Made by a program: the position numbers and the translations under genes | In this document: one piece after another, positions 34,435 through 42,554 of the stretch | Position numbering within the stretch: the first letter of the stretch is position 1 | Layout: each line of letters begins with the position of its first letter | IMG/VR virus record: IMGVR_UViG_3300023174_000039 | Coordinates: 124,001-188,000 of that record | From: a virus | Direction: 5' to 3' (one strand) | Length of the DNA stretch: 64,000 nt | The notes under the pieces: generated by a model | The model's input: the letters and a program-made list of their open reading frames with translations, nothing else | Told to the model about the DNA's origin: nothing | The model's database searches: none

Positions 34435-34973
34435 TGTTTAGACACTTGTTAGAAGGCCTACAGTACAAAGACCTAGAAGGCATCATGAAATCAACTGTGC
34501 ATATTGATGAATTTGCATCAAAAATGGGCGACGATGACGACATTGTGGTAGTGAGCTTTTTTGTAAGAGACCTACAGGCCGCAAAAGATCTAGTGGGTTG
34601 GTTTGAAAAGGGCTATGATTTTGTGCTGGATGCTGATCGCTCACCCGGTGAAATCAAGCCCAGTCGCTATCTAGTGTATGTGGAACTGCGTCGCCGTCCC
34701 GCAGTGGCCAAACAAGTGGGCACATTGATTGATGACCTGGGCACGCTCACAGAATTTGATGCCAAAGACTGGACCATGCGTTACGATGGCCGGACACAGC
34801 CTTGGTCAGTGGATGCAATGAAGGCAACTGTGCCACTTACTCCTGCTGACTATCGGTCAGCACATGGTGATGATCTAAATGATGTACGCACAGCCGCTGG
34901 TATTGAACCCAAGAAAGTTCACAAGCCCACACCAGAGACCTTGGCCATGCAGTCGGCTGCTGGGATAAGATAA
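34434..34973 (+). CDS. conserved T4-like phage protein, 179 aa
   Basis: TAATG-coupled. Conserved-looking core STVHIDEFASKMGDDDDIVV, FFVRDLQAAKDLVGWFEKGY, SPGEIKPSRYLVYVELRRRP, a pattern I associate with a small T4-like family found beside the preceding gene. The C-terminal tail (GIEPKKVHKPTPETLAM) is flexible. Function unknown. Coupled to the next gene by TAATG. Confidence 0.7.
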   Translation: MFRHLLEGLQYKDLEGIMKSTVHIDEFASKMGDDDDIVVVSFFVRDLQAAKDLVGWFEKGYDFVLDADRSPGEIKPSRYLVYVELRRRPAVAKQVGTLIDDLGTLTEFDAKDWTMRYDGRTQPWSVDAMKATVPLTPADYRSAHGDDLNDVRTAAGIEPKKVHKPTPETLAMQSAAGIR

Positions 34974-36166
34974 TGAAGATCACAGACGTTATTAAAGAAG
35001 ATGTTGCTCTTGAAGGTGAAGTTGTTCCACTGGGTAAAAAACATCGTGGTGATCTAGACAGCGTAAATTCATGCTCCAAGTGCGGTGGCAAGTTAGAAGG
35101 CGGAACATACATGGGGCAAAGAATCAAAGTATGCCAACCATGTAAGCAAGTTTATCTACCACCTAACAGCGGTATTGATCAACAGGGTAATAAAATTAAA
35201 GAACAAGGTGTGGCGGAAGGCTCATTGCGTGAACAGGCCAGTAAATTATTGTCTGCTGAAGATAAAGATGGCGTGATCACTATCATAGTACAAGCACCCG
35301 ATGGTACCAAGAGATCAGTAGCCGATACCAATCCAAACTATATCAATAGATGGTTAATGAAATATGGACTACGACTTCCTGCCAGTATTACCAGCAAGTT
35401 TGTGGGTGTGACAGAAGAATTCAGACCCACCACAGGGCAAGCCATGGGCATACGCAGTCAGACTGCACAAAAGATGAATCCTGGCAGCAGTAAATTCATT
35501 TGGAAACGACCAAATCAAATCATGGGCAGTCACACTGAAAATGAACTTCGTGCATTGAAATTTAGGTACTCAGCCAAACACAACGTCTGGGGCGGCACAC
35601 AACAGATGTGGAGTCAACTGGAGGGCACACTAAAAGAATTTGCTCCCAGTGCTCCTGGTGGTGCTGATCGCGGAGGTGGCAACTACTTTAAATCTTTGGC
35701 CCAGGCCTGGTATTATAATGGCGTACACGACTTTGATCTACAAGGTGGTGTCAAGACTCAACAAGACGTGGAACGCTTGCTACAACGTGGTATTGTATGT
35801 CCTGATGGTGTCACACGCAAGTTTGGAATAGATTACAATTCAGGTTTTAACGGTGTCGTGATATCCAGCGATGATTACTATGAACATTCTGATCATGGCA
35901 AACGACCTGGTACAATGATAGATGTTCGCACCGGGCGGCCCTGGGGACCATATGATTATATGGAATTCTCTGAAGATGATTTGGACGAAGATGTAGAAGA
36001 AGGCATCCGTGTGCCAGCACAGCAGATCTTGGGCACAAAAAACCGTGCGCAGTCAGCTTACTATCCCACCAATGTCAAGCCCAAGGTGCCTAAACTAGAC
36101 ACTCCCCTGACAGACAAGGAACTGGCAAGACTCTCACAGTTGGCCGGTGTCAACACAAATAAATAA
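34973..36166 (+). CDS. modular virion cargo protein with capsid-targeting-like N-terminus, 397 aa
   Basis: MKITDVIKED resembles a T4 capsid-targeting peptide. Domains in order: a zinc ribbon (CSKCGGKL ... CQPCKQVYLPP, residues 24-65), then a linker GVAEGSLRE, a small domain (DKDGVITIIVQAPDGTKRSV), a linker VTEEFRP, a domain near 160-215, LKEFAPSAPGG, and a domain containing NYFKSLAQAWYYNGVHDFDL. It ends with LARLSQLAGV. The V-x-E and E-F-A-P linkers recur in neighbouring proteins, so it may be processed in the capsid. Function of the pieces is unknown. Confidence 0.75.
   Translation: MKITDVIKEDVALEGEVVPLGKKHRGDLDSVNSCSKCGGKLEGGTYMGQRIKVCQPCKQVYLPPNSGIDQQGNKIKEQGVAEGSLREQASKLLSAEDKDGVITIIVQAPDGTKRSVADTNPNYINRWLMKYGLRLPASITSKFVGVTEEFRPTTGQAMGIRSQTAQKMNPGSSKFIWKRPNQIMGSHTENELRALKFRYSAKHNVWGGTQQMWSQLEGTLKEFAPSAPGGADRGGGNYFKSLAQAWYYNGVHDFDLQGGVKTQQDVERLLQRGIVCPDGVTRKFGIDYNSGFNGVVISSDDYYEHSDHGKRPGTMIDVRTGRPWGPYDYMEFSEDDLDEDVEEGIRVPAQQILGTKNRAQSAYYPTNVKPKVPKLDTPLTDKELARLSQLAGVNTNK
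36160..36165 (+). promoter_or_regulatory. T4-late-type TAAATA element, short gap
   Basis: AATAAATAA overlaps the upstream TAA stop and ends 7 nt before ATG 36173. Confidence 0.55.
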
Positions 36167-36172
36167 CATATC

Positions 36173-37465
36173 ATGAAAATAAACGACGTTGTTACATTAA
36201 TGGAATTTGGTGCTCCCGGCAGTCGCGCACTGGGCACTGGAAACTTTGCTCTGCTACACCGAGCCTATGTGAACAAACGTCCTAGACTCAGTAGATACTT
36301 GCAGTTGGATTTTGGCAACAATCAAATTATCGAACTTGACGATGATGACATTGAAGCAGTGGCCAACTACTATGATACATTGCCCACAGATCAAGATCGA
36401 TACACCTTTGTGTACGATGTCATGAGTCGTGGGGACAAATTTGATGCATTGTTGAAAAAACTGGGTCGCAGATCTGGTGCTCCTGAGCAACCCAGCTTGC
36501 TGGAGCAAAGCGACGACCCTGATCTAAGTCGCAGTGGTGTGCGTAGTGCGGCATTGAGCACAGCTTTGCGCCAGGCCTACGCCAAGTATCCACAAGCACA
36601 GAGTGATATCGAAGCCTTGATCATGCACGACATGGATGTTCAAAAAGACACCAAACAAGAGCTACAGGCACAAGATAAAATAAATCAACGTCAGGACGAT
36701 ATTGATGTGCAACTGCGCAATGTTGCCGGTAAACAAAGCAAAAAGATTTCCAGCTTAGATCAAGAAAATGATGACTTGACAGCAGAACTAGATCGGCTCA
36801 GCAGAGAACTGGATGCCATGCATGCTCAAACAGGTTCTGAACCTGAGCGCAAGAAACGCAGTGACAGCAAGGGCCAGCCTCCAGTGTACAACGTCAATAT
36901 CAAGTCAGCTGATCGTGCTGAAAAATCACAACAACGAGCAGCCGATGCTGAAAAACGCAAACCAGAACCAGCAAAACTCCGTCCAGGTGCCAGCACATTC
37001 AAACCTGTGGGATCTACTTTGCCCGTGACTCCTGCGGTCAAGCCACCTGCACCCACTATCAACGTGATTGATCGTCCAGATCCCAGTGCTGCCATGAGTC
37101 AAGTGGCATTTCAGGCTCCTGCCCCGCAACCAGACATTGCATTGCCTACCAAGCTGGGAGCAGATCTTGATGAGCCTGAAACGGACGCAACTCAACCAGA
37201 TCTGTTTGCAGAACCCAAAGATAACATAACGGTAGATCAGCCCGTGCCGCAAAGCATGTCCTCAATAGATGCTGAACCTGAACCTGAATTGCCGCCCAAC
37301 GTTACTAACCTGGCCACTCGCCGCAACAGAGTTGCAGAACCAGGCAGTGATCAGTATCGTAGAGACACTGTGGACCGAGCAAGAGATCTCATGCAAAAAC
37401 AAATGGCCATGCACGAAGCACAAGACTTGCGCCGCATGCAAAAACTAGCAGGATTACTGCAATGA
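36173..37465 (+). CDS. coiled-coil, Pro-rich cargo-type protein, 430 aa
   Basis: Capsid-targeting-like start MKINDVVTLMEFG. Residues 20-100 form a helical domain (LSRYLQLDFGNNQIIELDDD; FVYDVMSRGDKFDALLKKLG). Residues 160-225 are a coiled coil (QDKINQRQDDIDVQLRN; SSLDQENDDLTAELDRLS). Residues 225-395 are Pro/Ala-rich and probably disordered. The C-terminus RRMQKLAGLLQ repeats the R-M-x-K-L-A-G motif of the next protein. Probably an internal or scaffold-like virion protein. Coupled by ATGA. Confidence 0.7.
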   Translation: MKINDVVTLMEFGAPGSRALGTGNFALLHRAYVNKRPRLSRYLQLDFGNNQIIELDDDDIEAVANYYDTLPTDQDRYTFVYDVMSRGDKFDALLKKLGRRSGAPEQPSLLEQSDDPDLSRSGVRSAALSTALRQAYAKYPQAQSDIEALIMHDMDVQKDTKQELQAQDKINQRQDDIDVQLRNVAGKQSKKISSLDQENDDLTAELDRLSRELDAMHAQTGSEPERKKRSDSKGQPPVYNVNIKSADRAEKSQQRAADAEKRKPEPAKLRPGASTFKPVGSTLPVTPAVKPPAPTINVIDRPDPSAAMSQVAFQAPAPQPDIALPTKLGADLDEPETDATQPDLFAEPKDNITVDQPVPQSMSSIDAEPEPELPPNVTNLATRRNRVAEPGSDQYRRDTVDRARDLMQKQMAMHEAQDLRRMQKLAGLLQ

Positions 37466-38670
37466 AAATAAATCAGATTATACACGAAGCAGGTACTGGA
37501 TTAGAAATTGATCGTAGCATTCCTGGCCGCACTATTGCCAGGATCAGTGGAGATCTAGCACACAGAACAGGGTCTCTGACAGATAAAAGATTACCTGATC
37601 ACCATCCTGATGATGATTATGTTCCTTGGTCTGGCAAGGTAGGTGCATCAACCCGTGATGACGAAGAAGACACGTTTGATATAGATTACACCGGCGACGA
37701 TGGTGAATTAAACGAATTTGTTACGCCACAAGCAGTGGCACAAGATCCTGGACTAGAACGTGAAAAGGATGTGGATGTTATTTTCTTTGGCTTTATGCCC
37801 CAAGACTTCACTGCCCGAACTGCATGGAAGGCACTAGAAGATGTGTTGCCTAGAGAATATCCTGCTGGTAGTGAACGAGCACAAAATAAAATAGCAGAAG
37901 TTAGCAAGAATAATGGTGCCGTAGTCACAACCAAGCCCCTGAGCATAGCACAGAAACTGGTTAAAGAATTCCAAGCACGTGGCATCAAGTGTAGAATTGA
38001 TGATTCAGGTCTGGAAGAAGACATAACCCGCAGAGGATTCTTGAAGGGTGCAGGAGCAGCCGCTATGGCAGCAGCCGGCGGATCAGCACTAGGCCAGTCC
38101 ATACAAATGCCCACAGTAGACCAAGTTGACAGACAAAAAATGACAATTGTGGTAGATGGTCAAGAGTATCCCTTAGTCATATTATCTCCTACAGACTTTA
38201 GACCACGTGGCGGACAACAATTGCATATAACCTGTGCGCAGATGGGCGAACGCTGTATGGGTAGATATGATGCTGTGTTAGCACAAAACCGAGTGTTTGT
38301 GTTGCCAGGAACAAAGCCACCGGTTATTCCAGCCGGAGTTGACGAAAGTCGCCGAGGCAGCATGCCTGAGCCTGAAAACTTTGACAGTGACTGGGACTAT
38401 GAAGACGCTATGACACGTTGGAGAAACAGCGACTCTGACCAAGACATTGACTACGAGAATATAATAGACGATGAACCTGATGACTGGTTTGACGAATCTC
38501 GAGAGAAAGTAGGCAATATGGATGCTGATGCATTTGATGCTGCCTTGTCACGTATGAAAAAGCTAGCCGGTGCAGGTCCGCTAAAGACCGTGTATGATCC
38601 CAACAAACGTGTGTACCGAAATGTACCGCATGCTGTGCAACCCGCACAACAACCCAAGAAGGCAAGATAA
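37462..38670 (+). CDS. cargo-type protein with internal Tat-like signal, 402 aa
   Basis: Capsid-targeting-like start MKINQIIHEAG. Residues 95-175 form an alpha/beta domain (VDVIFFGFMPQDFTARTAWK). At residues 184-195 the sequence LEEDITRRGFLK joins an L-x-E cleavage-type site to a textbook twin-arginine motif. An Ala/Gly-rich hydrophobic stretch (GAGAAAMAAAGGSALGQS) follows. Next comes a beta-rich domain (KMTIVVDGQEYPLVILSPTD) and an acidic tail with RMKKLAGAG. Cleavage after LEE would expose an N-terminal Tat signal. Coupled by ATGA and TAATG to its neighbours. Confidence 0.75.
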   Translation: MKINQIIHEAGTGLEIDRSIPGRTIARISGDLAHRTGSLTDKRLPDHHPDDDYVPWSGKVGASTRDDEEDTFDIDYTGDDGELNEFVTPQAVAQDPGLEREKDVDVIFFGFMPQDFTARTAWKALEDVLPREYPAGSERAQNKIAEVSKNNGAVVTTKPLSIAQKLVKEFQARGIKCRIDDSGLEEDITRRGFLKGAGAAAMAAAGGSALGQSIQMPTVDQVDRQKMTIVVDGQEYPLVILSPTDFRPRGGQQLHITCAQMGERCMGRYDAVLAQNRVFVLPGTKPPVIPAGVDESRRGSMPEPENFDSDWDYEDAMTRWRNSDSDQDIDYENIIDDEPDDWFDESREKVGNMDADAFDAALSRMKKLAGAGPLKTVYDPNKRVYRNVPHAVQPAQQPKKAR

Positions 38671-40073
38671 TGAAGATAAAAGATTTTCAAACAGAATCAT
38701 GGAGCGAAAAATACAAGAACAGTATCAACTGCTCGCACCCCAAAGGTTTTAGCCAACGTGCGCATTGTGCCGGCAAAAAGAAGCATAATGAATCTGTTGA
38801 AATGGAAATGGTGTGTGAAGACTGTGGCATGTGCAAGTCACATGGTAGTCTCAATGAAATTCGAAAGGGTCAAAAAGACTCAAATGGCTACACACGTTGC
38901 TGGCCTGGCAAGCATGCCGAAGGTACCAAAAAGGGCAAGAATGGCGGCCAAGTTCGCAACTGTGTGCCCAATGAAAGTGTAGCGGAAGCAGATATGAGTC
39001 GCAGAGGTTTCCTTGGTGCGTTGGCAGGTGCAGGTTTAGCTGCCGCAGGATTAGGTGCCAGTGGTAATGCTCAGGCAGGCACCAACGATGCGGCATTTTT
39101 TAACAAAGTAAACGATCTACATCAAAAAACAGCTCAAACAAATCCTCGTTATGCCAAAGAACATGCATCCTTGAACATAGGTATTGTTAGAGGCATGTCT
39201 GGTGCCTCTGCTGAAAACAACAAGCAATGGGCACAAAAAACTGCTCAACTGTTACAAAAATACGGAGTTGCTGTAAACGAAAGTGTAGTAGAAGGTGAAC
39301 AGCGTGTGGATTCACTTGTGACCGACGCACTGAAAATCATGCAGGGTTCAGAAGTAACTGATGCTGTGCAAGCACTAAAGACTGTGCTGGGAGATAGAGA
39401 GTATAACGGTCGCCGTGGTCATTATAATTTCTATATTAGACAAATAATGGATATGTATAACCAGCAAGGCCTAGCAGAAGACTTCAACGGTGAATACGAT
39501 GACGAAGCAGGCATGGTCAAGAATAACCTTCACACTATTATTCGCGTGTTGACACACCTGGGCAAAGATATCGACAACAACGAAAATTTCCCTGAATGGG
39601 TGCAAGAAAAGATTGCCATGATCAAGCAAACCAGTGTTGAAGTTATGAACTACATGATTAGTCAGCACAAAATGGACGTTGATCCTGAAGTAGAAGAAAT
39701 GTACGAAGCCATGGATCAACTGGCAGAAGAAATGGCAGCCAAAAAAGGCATCAGTGCTGACCTAGTATGGGAAAGCTTCGAAGCTCTAGACGATCACATG
39801 CTGTACGAAACAGCCGCCTGGCGCAGAAAAGAAGGCAAGAGCAAAAAGGGCGGCCTAAACGCCAAAGGTGTTGCTAGCTATAGACGCGAGCATCCTGGTT
39901 CAAAACTGCAAACAGCAGTGACCACAAAGCCTAGTAAATTAAAGCCTGGATCAAAAGCAGCCAAGCGTCGCAAGAGTTTCTGCGCACGTATGTCAGGTGT
40001 TAAAGGACCTGCCAAAAAGCCCAACGGTGAACCCACACGCAAGACTCTGGCCTTGCGCAAATGGAACTGCTGA
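38670..40073 (+). CDS. modular cargo-type protein with internal Tat-like signal and basic Cys-containing ends, 467 aa
   Basis: Start MKIKDFQTES. Residues 10-37 (WSEKYKNSINCSHPKGFSQR then AHCAGKKK) are a small Cys/His module common in phages. Residues 48-100 hold a CxxC segment. At 103-116 SVAEADMSRRGFLG places a V-x-E-A site before a twin-arginine motif, followed by a hydrophobic stretch ending NAQAG. Further linkers are SVVEGEQ and GLAEDFN. The middle is helical and acidic. The C-terminal 85 residues (AAWRRKEGKSKKGGLNAKGV; RRKSFCARMSGVKG; ALRKWNC) form a conserved basic phage domain. ATG 38994 could also act as an internal start at the Tat motif. Confidence 0.75.
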   Translation: MKIKDFQTESWSEKYKNSINCSHPKGFSQRAHCAGKKKHNESVEMEMVCEDCGMCKSHGSLNEIRKGQKDSNGYTRCWPGKHAEGTKKGKNGGQVRNCVPNESVAEADMSRRGFLGALAGAGLAAAGLGASGNAQAGTNDAAFFNKVNDLHQKTAQTNPRYAKEHASLNIGIVRGMSGASAENNKQWAQKTAQLLQKYGVAVNESVVEGEQRVDSLVTDALKIMQGSEVTDAVQALKTVLGDREYNGRRGHYNFYIRQIMDMYNQQGLAEDFNGEYDDEAGMVKNNLHTIIRVLTHLGKDIDNNENFPEWVQEKIAMIKQTSVEVMNYMISQHKMDVDPEVEEMYEAMDQLAEEMAAKKGISADLVWESFEALDDHMLYETAAWRRKEGKSKKGGLNAKGVASYRREHPGSKLQTAVTTKPSKLKPGSKAAKRRKSFCARMSGVKGPAKKPNGEPTRKTLALRKWNC

Positions 40074-40723
40074 TGCTGGTTGATGAACTGTTTACCACGT
40101 CGTGGCTGACAGAATCCACGGACTCTGCACCTGATCTTGACCGGATCTTGGTAGACCTGTGTGCCATGGTTGTAAAGGGTAAGCAACGCAAGCCCGACTA
40201 CTACGGCATGGTTGCGGCTGCTGTGGTTGATCCCAAAGGCCGTGTGGTCCGGGCTGTGAATCACTTTGATGACGCAACTGACAAACGCATACATGGTGAA
40301 CGTGCTGCCATTCAAGCGTATGAACGCCGGTACGGTCGAGTCACACCAGATTGTACTATAGTAACCACCCTGAGTCCTTGCAGTGAGCGCATGGACGATC
40401 GTTATGGTGAGAGCTGTGAAGATCTTTTAGATGACTATGGTATCACTGATATCTACTGTGGCTATCAAGACCCCACACAAGACTCGGGCTACACAGTTAC
40501 TAGCAATGAAAAAATACAGGAACTGTGCAAGGCCTTTGCTGACACGTTCCTGGGTGATCAACAACTGGATGAACTCAGCTTCTTGGGTAGCCCTTGCACC
40601 AAAGACTGTTCTGGGCATCGCGCAGGATATGATTGGTCAGCACGTAAAGGCAACATCCCGGGCACGAGCCCTTACAGTCCCAGCTTCAACAACGGCGCCA
40701 ATTTAAGAGCCGCTGGCAAATAA
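40073..40723 (+). CDS. cytidine/deoxycytidylate-type deaminase domain protein, 216 aa
   Basis: HGERAAIQAYERRYG and TLSPCSERMDDRYGESC give the H-x-E and P-C-x(n)-C zinc-binding and catalytic pattern of the CDA/dCMP-deaminase superfamily. The insertion between the two Cys is unusually long. The C-terminal FLGSPCTKDCSGHRAGYDWS is a motif seen in many phage virion-associated proteins. Start 40073 (TGATG overlap) gives MLVDELFTTSWLTES, matching the start of the gene at 63915 (MIVDQLFTT); ATG 40061 is the alternative. Substrate unknown; a nucleotide, DNA or protein-linked base is possible. Confidence 0.75.
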   Translation: MLVDELFTTSWLTESTDSAPDLDRILVDLCAMVVKGKQRKPDYYGMVAAAVVDPKGRVVRAVNHFDDATDKRIHGERAAIQAYERRYGRVTPDCTIVTTLSPCSERMDDRYGESCEDLLDDYGITDIYCGYQDPTQDSGYTVTSNEKIQELCKAFADTFLGDQQLDELSFLGSPCTKDCSGHRAGYDWSARKGNIPGTSPYSPSFNNGANLRAAGK

Positions 40724-41576: not shown

Positions 41577-42554
41577 ATGAAACGATTATTAGCTATATTG
41601 GCACTGGTTCCTATGCTGGTGTTTGCTCAGTCTTGGACCCCGCCCAAGACAGTCACTGCCATAGTGGGAAATGCACCCGGGGCAGGCAACGAAATTGCAT
41701 TTAGAAAAGCCGCAGAGATTGTGACACGCACAACAGGCATTAACTTTGTGATAGAAAACCGCCCGGGTGCAGACAGTGTTATTGCCATGAACATGATGAT
41801 GACCAAGCCCAGTGACGGAAGTGTTGTGGCACTGCCCAGTCACATGAGCACCTATGTCACAAATGATATCTGGGAAAAGAATGTCAAGAAATTTGAATGG
41901 AATAGTTTTGAAGAAGTCTTAAGCTATGGCAAAGCACCATTGGTGGTTGTGAGTGCTGCCCGTAGTTCAATTAACACGCCAGCAGATTTGCTAAAGATGT
42001 TTCAAACAGTTGACAGGCCCATTAATGTGGCCATCGGCGGTGGTGCACATAGAATGGCGTTTGAGTACATGATGGTTAAAACTCGAGCAGATCGCAATCA
42101 AATCAAACATATCAAATTTAATGGACCAGCACAAGCGGTGAGCAGTGTGGCTGCATATGATGGCAAAATTGGCACAGAACTTGGTATTATGCCTGCTGCC
42201 ATTGCTCTGCCCCTGGTGCAAGCAGGCAAGGTCAAATTCATTGGACTAACAGGCACAAAGAAACTACAACAAATACCCACAGTACCTTTGCTAAGTGATG
42301 CTATACCTGGTGTTATGGCACAGGCAGGGTGGAATCTTGTGTTGCCACCCATGACACCGCGTCCCATTGTTGATTGGTATGTGAAAGAATTTGGCCGTGC
42401 ATTAAAGACACAAGAATATCGCCAATGGGCCGAAGACAACTTAATTATAGTAGACGAAAAGGATCACACTCCCGAAGGAGTGCGAGCACACATGGCAGAC
42501 TTGCGCCAGCGATTCTTGCCCATGGCACAGTATATTTCACAAGAAGGCAATTGA
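41577..42554 (+). CDS. periplasmic substrate receptor of the TctC/Bug family, 325 aa
   Basis: Signal peptide MKRLLAILALVPMLVFAQS then the Bug-family pattern: TVTAIVGNAPGAGNEIAFRK, VIENRPGADSVIAMNMMMTK, and LGIMPAAIALPLVQAGKVKF with GLTGTKKLQQIPTVPLLSDA. Bug proteins bind small organic acids for tripartite tricarboxylate transporters and are greatly expanded in Burkholderiales. AAGGA precedes ATG 41577; full length for the family. No TctA/TctB partner is present, so it would work with host permeases or bind a signal molecule. Its ligand cannot be read from sequence. Confidence 0.92.
   Translation: MKRLLAILALVPMLVFAQSWTPPKTVTAIVGNAPGAGNEIAFRKAAEIVTRTTGINFVIENRPGADSVIAMNMMMTKPSDGSVVALPSHMSTYVTNDIWEKNVKKFEWNSFEEVLSYGKAPLVVVSAARSSINTPADLLKMFQTVDRPINVAIGGGAHRMAFEYMMVKTRADRNQIKHIKFNGPAQAVSSVAAYDGKIGTELGIMPAAIALPLVQAGKVKFIGLTGTKKLQQIPTVPLLSDAIPGVMAQAGWNLVLPPMTPRPIVDWYVKEFGRALKTQEYRQWAEDNLIIVDEKDHTPEGVRAHMADLRQRFLPMAQYISQEGN

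Follow-up and report, generated by a model that had tools for sequence, protein, structure and literature searches.

Tat-type export signals directly behind prohead-protease-type sites in predicted virion cargo proteins of a T4-like jumbo phage

Introduction

Injected phage proteins are mostly regarded as cytoplasmic agents. In phage T4, gp21 strips a short N-terminal capsid-targeting peptide from the internal proteins and from Alt, which are later injected (PMC7411985, PMC9958956), and the available sections of PMC9958956, PMC7411985 and PMC3012670 describe no export signal in the T4 internal proteins. In SPN3US, the prohead protease gp245 cuts head proteins at AxE sites, a Glu motif that recalls the one used by T4 gp21, and the available part of the same source reports no export signal in the SPN3US ejection proteins (PMC7411985). 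Polyvalent proteins are multidomain and are thought to be injected and to be split into units that go to different subcellular destinations; the paper that describes them mentions neither Tat, nor signal peptides, nor the periplasm (Iyer et al. 2017, PMC5512222). In the literature searched, which covered papers readable without a subscription, no paper was found that describes Tat signals in the cargo of phage heads.

Here we analysed a stretch of 64,000 nucleotides (the window, G000:C1:124001-188000) within a 331,654-bp virus record, in which two adjacent genes encode putative virion cargo proteins. Both carry a Tat-type segment directly behind a site of the kind that T4 gp21 cleaves.

Results

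The window contained four collinear genes in a row (starting at 34973, 36173, 37462 and 38670), and all of their products start with MKI. The last two are polyprotein-like ORFs and putative virion cargo genes, gene 1 (37462..38670, + strand) encoding 402 aa with a TIGR01409 TAT_signal match over the cut-off and gene 2 (38670..40073, +) encoding 467 aa. The first neighbour gene (34973..36166, +) has the capsid-targeting-like prefix MKITDVIKE/D, where the slash marks a putative cleavage point, and several [LIV]xE sites, and the second (36173..37465, +) has the similar prefix MKINDVVTLME/F. Shortly downstream of the cargo genes, at window 41577-42554, lies a gene for a solute-binding protein that starts with an ordinary signal peptide and that we take to be TctC-like from recognition of its sequence rather than from a family search. 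A close bacterial relative of this gene was sought in genome_contigs as a clue to the host, and none was found there. A deaminase-domain protein (window 40061-40723) has the tail QQLDE/LSFLGSPCTKDCSGHRAGY, and a Glu-type site precedes the C-terminal module here too.

In the 37462 protein, the stretch G-L184-E-E186-D187-I-T-R190-R191-G-F-L-K-G contains a prohead-protease-type site, L184-E-E186/D187 (38011..38019, +), recognised from the sequence and from the pairing statistics given below. It is followed by the predicted Tat signal peptide DITRRGFLKGAGAAAMAAAGGSALG/Q (residues 187-211; 38020..38094, +), identified by TIGR01409 and PF10518 and by the homologue L199, which has AMA/Q. The corresponding stretch of the 38670 protein, S103-V-A-E106-A107-D-M109-S-R111-R112-G-F-L-G, contains the site V104-A-E106/A107 (38979..38987, +), recognised from the sequence, and the predicted Tat signal peptide ADMSRRGFLGALAGAGLAAAGLGASGNAQA/G (residues 107-136; 38988..39077, +), identified by TIGR01409 and the homologue L073, with an h-region that terminates in N-A-Q-A136/G. 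In both proteins, R-R-G-F-L and an Ala/Gly-rich h-region were found 3-4 residues downstream of [L/V]xE, and both segments agreed with the twin-Arg consensus of Tat substrates, with their weakly hydrophobic h-region and with an AxA-type ending, the putative signal-peptidase sites being ALG/Q and AQA/G, respectively. The NCBIfam profile TIGR01409, with a cut-off of 16.7 bits, scored the whole 37462 protein at 24.8 bits, and at 26.7 bits after truncation near D187. The 38670 protein, scanned within its protein, scored 15.8-16.3 bits against the cut-off of 16.7. A six-frame genome search gave 30.5 bits for the 37462 and 19.9 bits for the 38670 segment, both above the cut-off, and these two were the only matches at E<=1 in the 331,654-bp record. 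PF10518 scored the 37462 protein at 22.2 bits against a cut-off of 22.7 and at 23.1 bits in the genome search, which included in-frame neighbours. The placement of Tat-type segments directly behind protease-type sites, proposed for both proteins in the initial annotation, was confirmed by sequence and TIGR01409. The twin Arg is internal in both chains (residues 190 and 111) and would become N-terminal only upon cleavage at the Glu site.

The pairing of the Glu site with R-R-x-F-L was kept in relatives, as seen both in profile searches and in scans of IMG/VR. Loci retrieved by homology to the 38670 protein held about nine further Tat-type segments, each after [LV]xE. Among 44 related records, TIGR01409 gave 12 matches over the cut-off, the two of the window included, and all of them followed [LV]xE, with the junctions LDE/ID-RR, LDE/IS-RR, LDE/DLS-RR, VSE/ADMN-RR, VEE/AGGPDMS-RR, VTE/ADMN-RR, VDE/ADMS-RR, VNE/DLT-RR and LEE/ID-RR. 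IMG/VR was scanned twice for RRGFL[KR]G with the upstream sequence left free, which yielded 72 distinct contexts; the query itself fixes RR, so these scans speak to the upstream site and not to the conservation of RR. An [LIV]xE lay at most nine residues upstream in 54/72 contexts and at a spacing of 2-4 residues in 50/72. For internal motifs, defined as having at least 60 residues upstream, [LIV]xE stood at a spacing of 2-4 in 33/46, compared with 2.0 expected (p ~7e-35) from random positions in the same proteins (2000 draws, maximum 7). When each cargo type was counted once, the fraction was 24/36. Contexts without [LIV]xE came mostly from giant proteins of the polyvalent type or were plain N-terminal signals, and TDE/DLS and TDE/AID forms made up the others. 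Further downstream, an AxA was found 18-34 residues past RR in 41/54 relatives versus 16 expected from composition by shuffling, and the signal of L138 ends in a lipobox-like LSGC, in the style of a lipoprotein. A chance match was considered and ruled out because the over-cut-off matches in relatives follow [LV]xE and 33 of the 46 internal motifs in IMG/VR are paired with [LIV]xE at a spacing of 2-4.

In smaller phages, internal Tat signals without a Glu site were observed in giant proteins of the polyvalent type (LPD22, ART-PolyVal), with the carriers L134:92-3598, L122:3-4445, L141:3068-9634, L104:561-9263 and L126; in L134, PF10518 scored 27.3 bits at residue 246. These are possibly a parallel solution that uses another protease.

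If the sites are cut during head maturation, as proposed in the initial annotation, the genome should encode a matching protease, and it does. A Peptidase_S77 gene was found at G000:C1:319159-319602 (E 1e-23), with a product homologous to the T4 gp21 prohead protease structure 5JBL (E 1e-11), along with a gene for a gp23 major capsid protein (E 1e-97). The stretch YLKE/NASAG in gp23 suggests, by analogy, that an LxE maturation site is present there also. The [LIV]xE cleavage specificity is taken over from T4. Peptidase_S77 was present in 5/5 tested contigs of >280 kb with Glu-site Tat modules and in 0/12 contigs without a Glu site, the latter being mostly small genomes; in G001 and G007, two records of >250 kb with Glu-site Tat modules, the Peptidase_S77 search gave no match. 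Near the major capsid gene, at L016:3028-11087 (G000:C1:323028-331087), large repeat proteins occur in tandem copies and alternate with Gly-rich proteins (MPLSIGPGW.. / MGFTIGPGW..).

Both cargo proteins start with a capsid-targeting-like prefix. That of the 37462 protein is MKINQIIHE, with the site IHE/A (37462..37488, +), a pattern that is shared in the genome and is similar to the T4 capsid-targeting sequence (PMC9958956), and that of the 38670 protein is MKIKDFQTE, followed by S (38670..38696, +), with the same pattern. The pattern M[KR]xx(D/E/Q)(F/I/V)xxE occurred on about ten genes of the genome, these two included, and other prefixed genes start with MRAREFLTE, MRAHEFLSE and MRFREFITE. 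An N-terminal prefix ending at a Glu site, as in the T4 internal proteins, is present by resemblance. In several relatives, the Tat segment stands immediately behind the prefix (MRIHEIINE/DISRRGFLKG, MRLEEILE/DISRRGFLKG and MRAREFVNE/DLTRRGFLRG).

An alternative to unmasking by cleavage is that the signal works already in the producing cell, from an internal start or with a short n-region, giving export late in infection without packaging. The initial annotation had pointed to the ATG at 38994, which is M109 of the 38670 protein, and as a general explanation this start fails. Among 62 collected modules, the position two before RR was I, L, M or V in all 62, and the codon there was ATG or TTG in 12; a Shine-Dalgarno sequence was recognised in none. 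The other 50 have ATA, ATT, ATC, GTA or other codons, the 37462 protein having ATA, and internal initiation as a rule was rejected for most modules on the basis of this codon survey, although internal starts may be used in individual cases. The constant hydrophobic residue may go back to the initiator Met of a Tat protein that was captured. The depth of the modules points the same way, with 44/62 lying >60 residues into the protein. In 11/62, RR is preceded by at most 30 residues (by just seven in L165/L174), and signals that start so close to the protein start could act uncleaved. Export from the producing cell would, however, leave unexplained both the Glu site 2-4 residues upstream and the capsid-targeting-like prefixes, and we consider it unlikely.

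The modules between the Glu sites have been exchanged among phage proteins. The N-terminal module of the 38670 protein (..RNCVPNES; 38697..38978, +) is common to about 24 relatives, in which it nearly always ends in a [VIL]xE-type site. Behind it comes Tat cargo in L039 and L042, and in a more distant form in L047; the remaining relatives have unrelated parts in this place. Cargo 2 (residues 137-208; 39078..39293, +), delimited by homology to L073, ends at a second site, VVE/G. The 38670 protein and L073 shared 74% identity across a block that coincides exactly with residues 107-208 and runs from VxE/ADMSRR to the next VxE, and were largely dissimilar outside it. The 37462 module was 68% identical to that of L199, the upstream part of which is different. 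By itself, each module had one relative, L199 for the 37462 module and L073/L226 for the cargo-2 module, and no relatives of the whole 37462 protein were found in viral_contigs or phage isolates. The 38670 protein was matched by 521 phage records, chiefly at its C-terminal end, a DUF6321 domain (39834..40064, +; PF19846, E 4e-20) that is frequent in cyanophage and pelagiphage proteins.

A different signal was found in the same position in cargo homologues without RR, with the layout xxE/GWKSALGGAALAGAMALGG...AxA. This WK-type signal, carried by L052, L236:9041-10039, L169, L219, L231 and others, stands regularly behind a Glu site, as in VDE/GWKSALGGAALAGAMALGGSGAHA/Q on L204-type cargo, LEE/DWKSALATGAMAGAMAMGASA on LysM cargo and LDE/NWKNKLAAGALSAAMGLGAMGAANA/Q on L172-type cargo; one copy is joined to a GH19 hydrolase. 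A scan of IMG/VR for WK[ST]ALG, with no upstream constraint, gave 23 distinct contexts, of which 21 were xxE/(G/S)WKS... (19 with L/I/V and two with M) and two were unrelated. In searches of isolated phages for Tat or WK-type signals none was found, with a BLAST low-complexity filter that may mask Ala-rich stretches. Judged by its layout, the WK-type is a putative Sec signal. The same cargo has a Tat signal in L204 and a WK-type signal in L052 and L236, and for both versions the homology of the cargo begins at the AxA site. The swap affects just the segment that runs from the protease site to the signal-peptidase site, the behaviour expected of export signals. Loss of the twin Arg in homologues that keep the linker, which the initial annotation had named as evidence against its reading, was seen in part: in the homologues L050, L068 and L168 the cargo comes behind the xE site without any signal, which means that export is not required of every cargo, and other homologues have replaced RR by the Sec-like signal.

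As the initial annotation's reading predicts, envelope-type domains were found behind the signal and none before it. Tat modules occur on more than 30 cargo types. A Pfam search of 60 post-signal sequences identified LysM (3), TonB_2/TonB_C/TolA C-terminal (3) and SLT (2) domains, also M48, phage lysozyme and a few others, and a search of 42 pre-signal parts identified CTP_transf_like (4) and GNAT acetyltransferase domains and no envelope domain. Judged by these domains, the recognisable cargo would act in the envelope and the upstream parts (nucleotidyltransferase, GNAT) would be cytosolic. The distance from RR to the domain start was 34 residues both for LysM in L114 and for TonB_2 in L205. 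In the window, cargo domain 1 (residues 219-280; 38116..38301, +) was predicted by AlphaFold2 to be a beta domain of six strands that contains a conserved C-x6-C pair (pLDDT ~73-86), directly after a disordered signal, and cargo 2 was predicted with low confidence to consist of helices. With these models of modest confidence, no significant fold match for cargo 1 or cargo 2 was found in the PDB. TonB/TolA C-terminal domains follow a phage Tat signal in L192, L193 and L205:6034-7482; these domains may act as decoys for the TonB or Tol system of the host. In L171, L173 and L217, the cargo that comes after the Tat module is unusual, a long stretch rich in Gly, His and Ser (GGGGGGGHGGSGGHASS).

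These observations bear on two further explanations. The segments are hydrophobic and Ala/Gly-rich and could serve ejected proteins as membrane-active or anchoring elements, such as a piece of an inner-membrane conduit, and the accessible text of PMC8402733 describes an envelope-spanning conduit built by phage P22 ejection proteins. Such an element would not account for the twin-Arg consensus with its profile matches, the enrichment of AxA, the lipobox-like end in L138, the soluble envelope domains immediately behind the signal or the second signal type swapped in between both cleavage sites, which makes this explanation distinctly improbable. There is just as little chance that the segment is a mobile, non-functional peptide (Glu-Ile-Asp-RRGFLKG...) that recombines, Glu included, among linker-rich phage proteins, as one version (GSLEEIDRRGFLKGLGAAAVAGAAG) repeated across many proteins, the highly uniform Sec-like version and the homologues without the segment might suggest, since the junctions are diverse (E/ID, E/DLS, E/ADMS, E/GMN, E/APTDVS and E/AQEQLN), the segment is tied to envelope cargo and not to upstream domains, and the pairing holds even at one count per cargo type.

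Discussion

The reading that a prohead protease unmasks the Tat signal, with export after injection, was already put forward in the initial annotation and is the one best supported by the sequence data, through the protease gene, the conserved pairing and the envelope cargo. We consider it reasonably probable that the two proteins belong to a class of virion polyproteins of T4-like jumbo phages that are cut by the prohead protease, with the new N-termini serving as export signals after injection. The signals, the sites and their tight spacing, the protease gene, the prefixes, the module exchange and the nature of the identifiable cargo are features of the sequences themselves; that the proteins are packaged, cut at precisely these bonds, injected, exported by Tat and active in the periplasm is inferred from them.

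In the proposed mechanism, the capsid-targeting prefix would carry the cargo polyprotein into the prohead core, where the gp21-type prohead protease would cleave after [L/I/V]xE and divide the chain into modules. A module that acts in the envelope would have a Tat signal at its freshly cut end, and in relatives this could also be a Sec-like signal. The signal would be inert within the precursor, and cleavage would turn it into an N-terminal signal peptide. The mature pre-protein would then enter the host with the DNA, the Tat machinery of the new host would export the cargo, and signal peptidase would cleave at the AxA-type site. Periplasmic action, such as envelope remodelling or the exclusion of rival phages, could thereby precede the synthesis of new phage proteins. 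With the signal hidden until head maturation, no export would occur in the producing cell and the cargo would be reserved for the next one.

If the cargo is exported, the periplasm of the next host would be pre-loaded at infection with peptidoglycan-binding, lytic and TonB/TolA-like proteins, and the hidden signal would block premature export in the producing cell until the head matures. The sequence rule of [LIV]xE, 2-4 residues and RRxFL offers a way to find such effectors in uncultured phages. The chances are about even that this reflects a general virus strategy, in which proteolysis during capsid maturation switches cytosol-safe polyproteins to secretory pre-proteins of the Tat or Sec-like type, and the virion delivers periplasmic effectors via the cytoplasm and exporters of the next host before phage gene expression.

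The components, namely T4 internal proteins, Tat signals and injected polyvalent proteins, are already known; the literature searched yielded no example of their combination. As in T4 IPI-III and Alt, so far as the available text of PMC9958956, PMC7411985 and PMC3012670 describes them, an N-terminal prefix of about 10 aa ends in a Glu site for a protease of the gp21 family, and the cargo is variable and presumed to be injected. The cargo described for T4 has cytoplasmic targets (restriction enzyme, RNA polymerase), whereas here there are several sites per chain and an export signal after some of them. The Glu-site cleavage proposed here also resembles that of SPN3US head proteins. With polyvalent proteins the locus shares the multidomain layout, the presumed injection and the presumed processing into separately targeted units. 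Polyvalent proteins often carry their own metallopeptidase (PMC5512222), whereas neither a built-in metallopeptidase nor an LPD/ART domain gave a Pfam match in the 37462 or 38670 protein, and here a separate prohead protease would make the cut. The signals themselves are like those of ordinary Tat substrates (TIGR01409, PF10518), with [S/T/N/D]RRGFLK, an Ala/Gly-rich h-region and AxA. In contrast to ordinary substrates, in which the signal is N-terminal, it lies here up to ~990 residues into the precursor.
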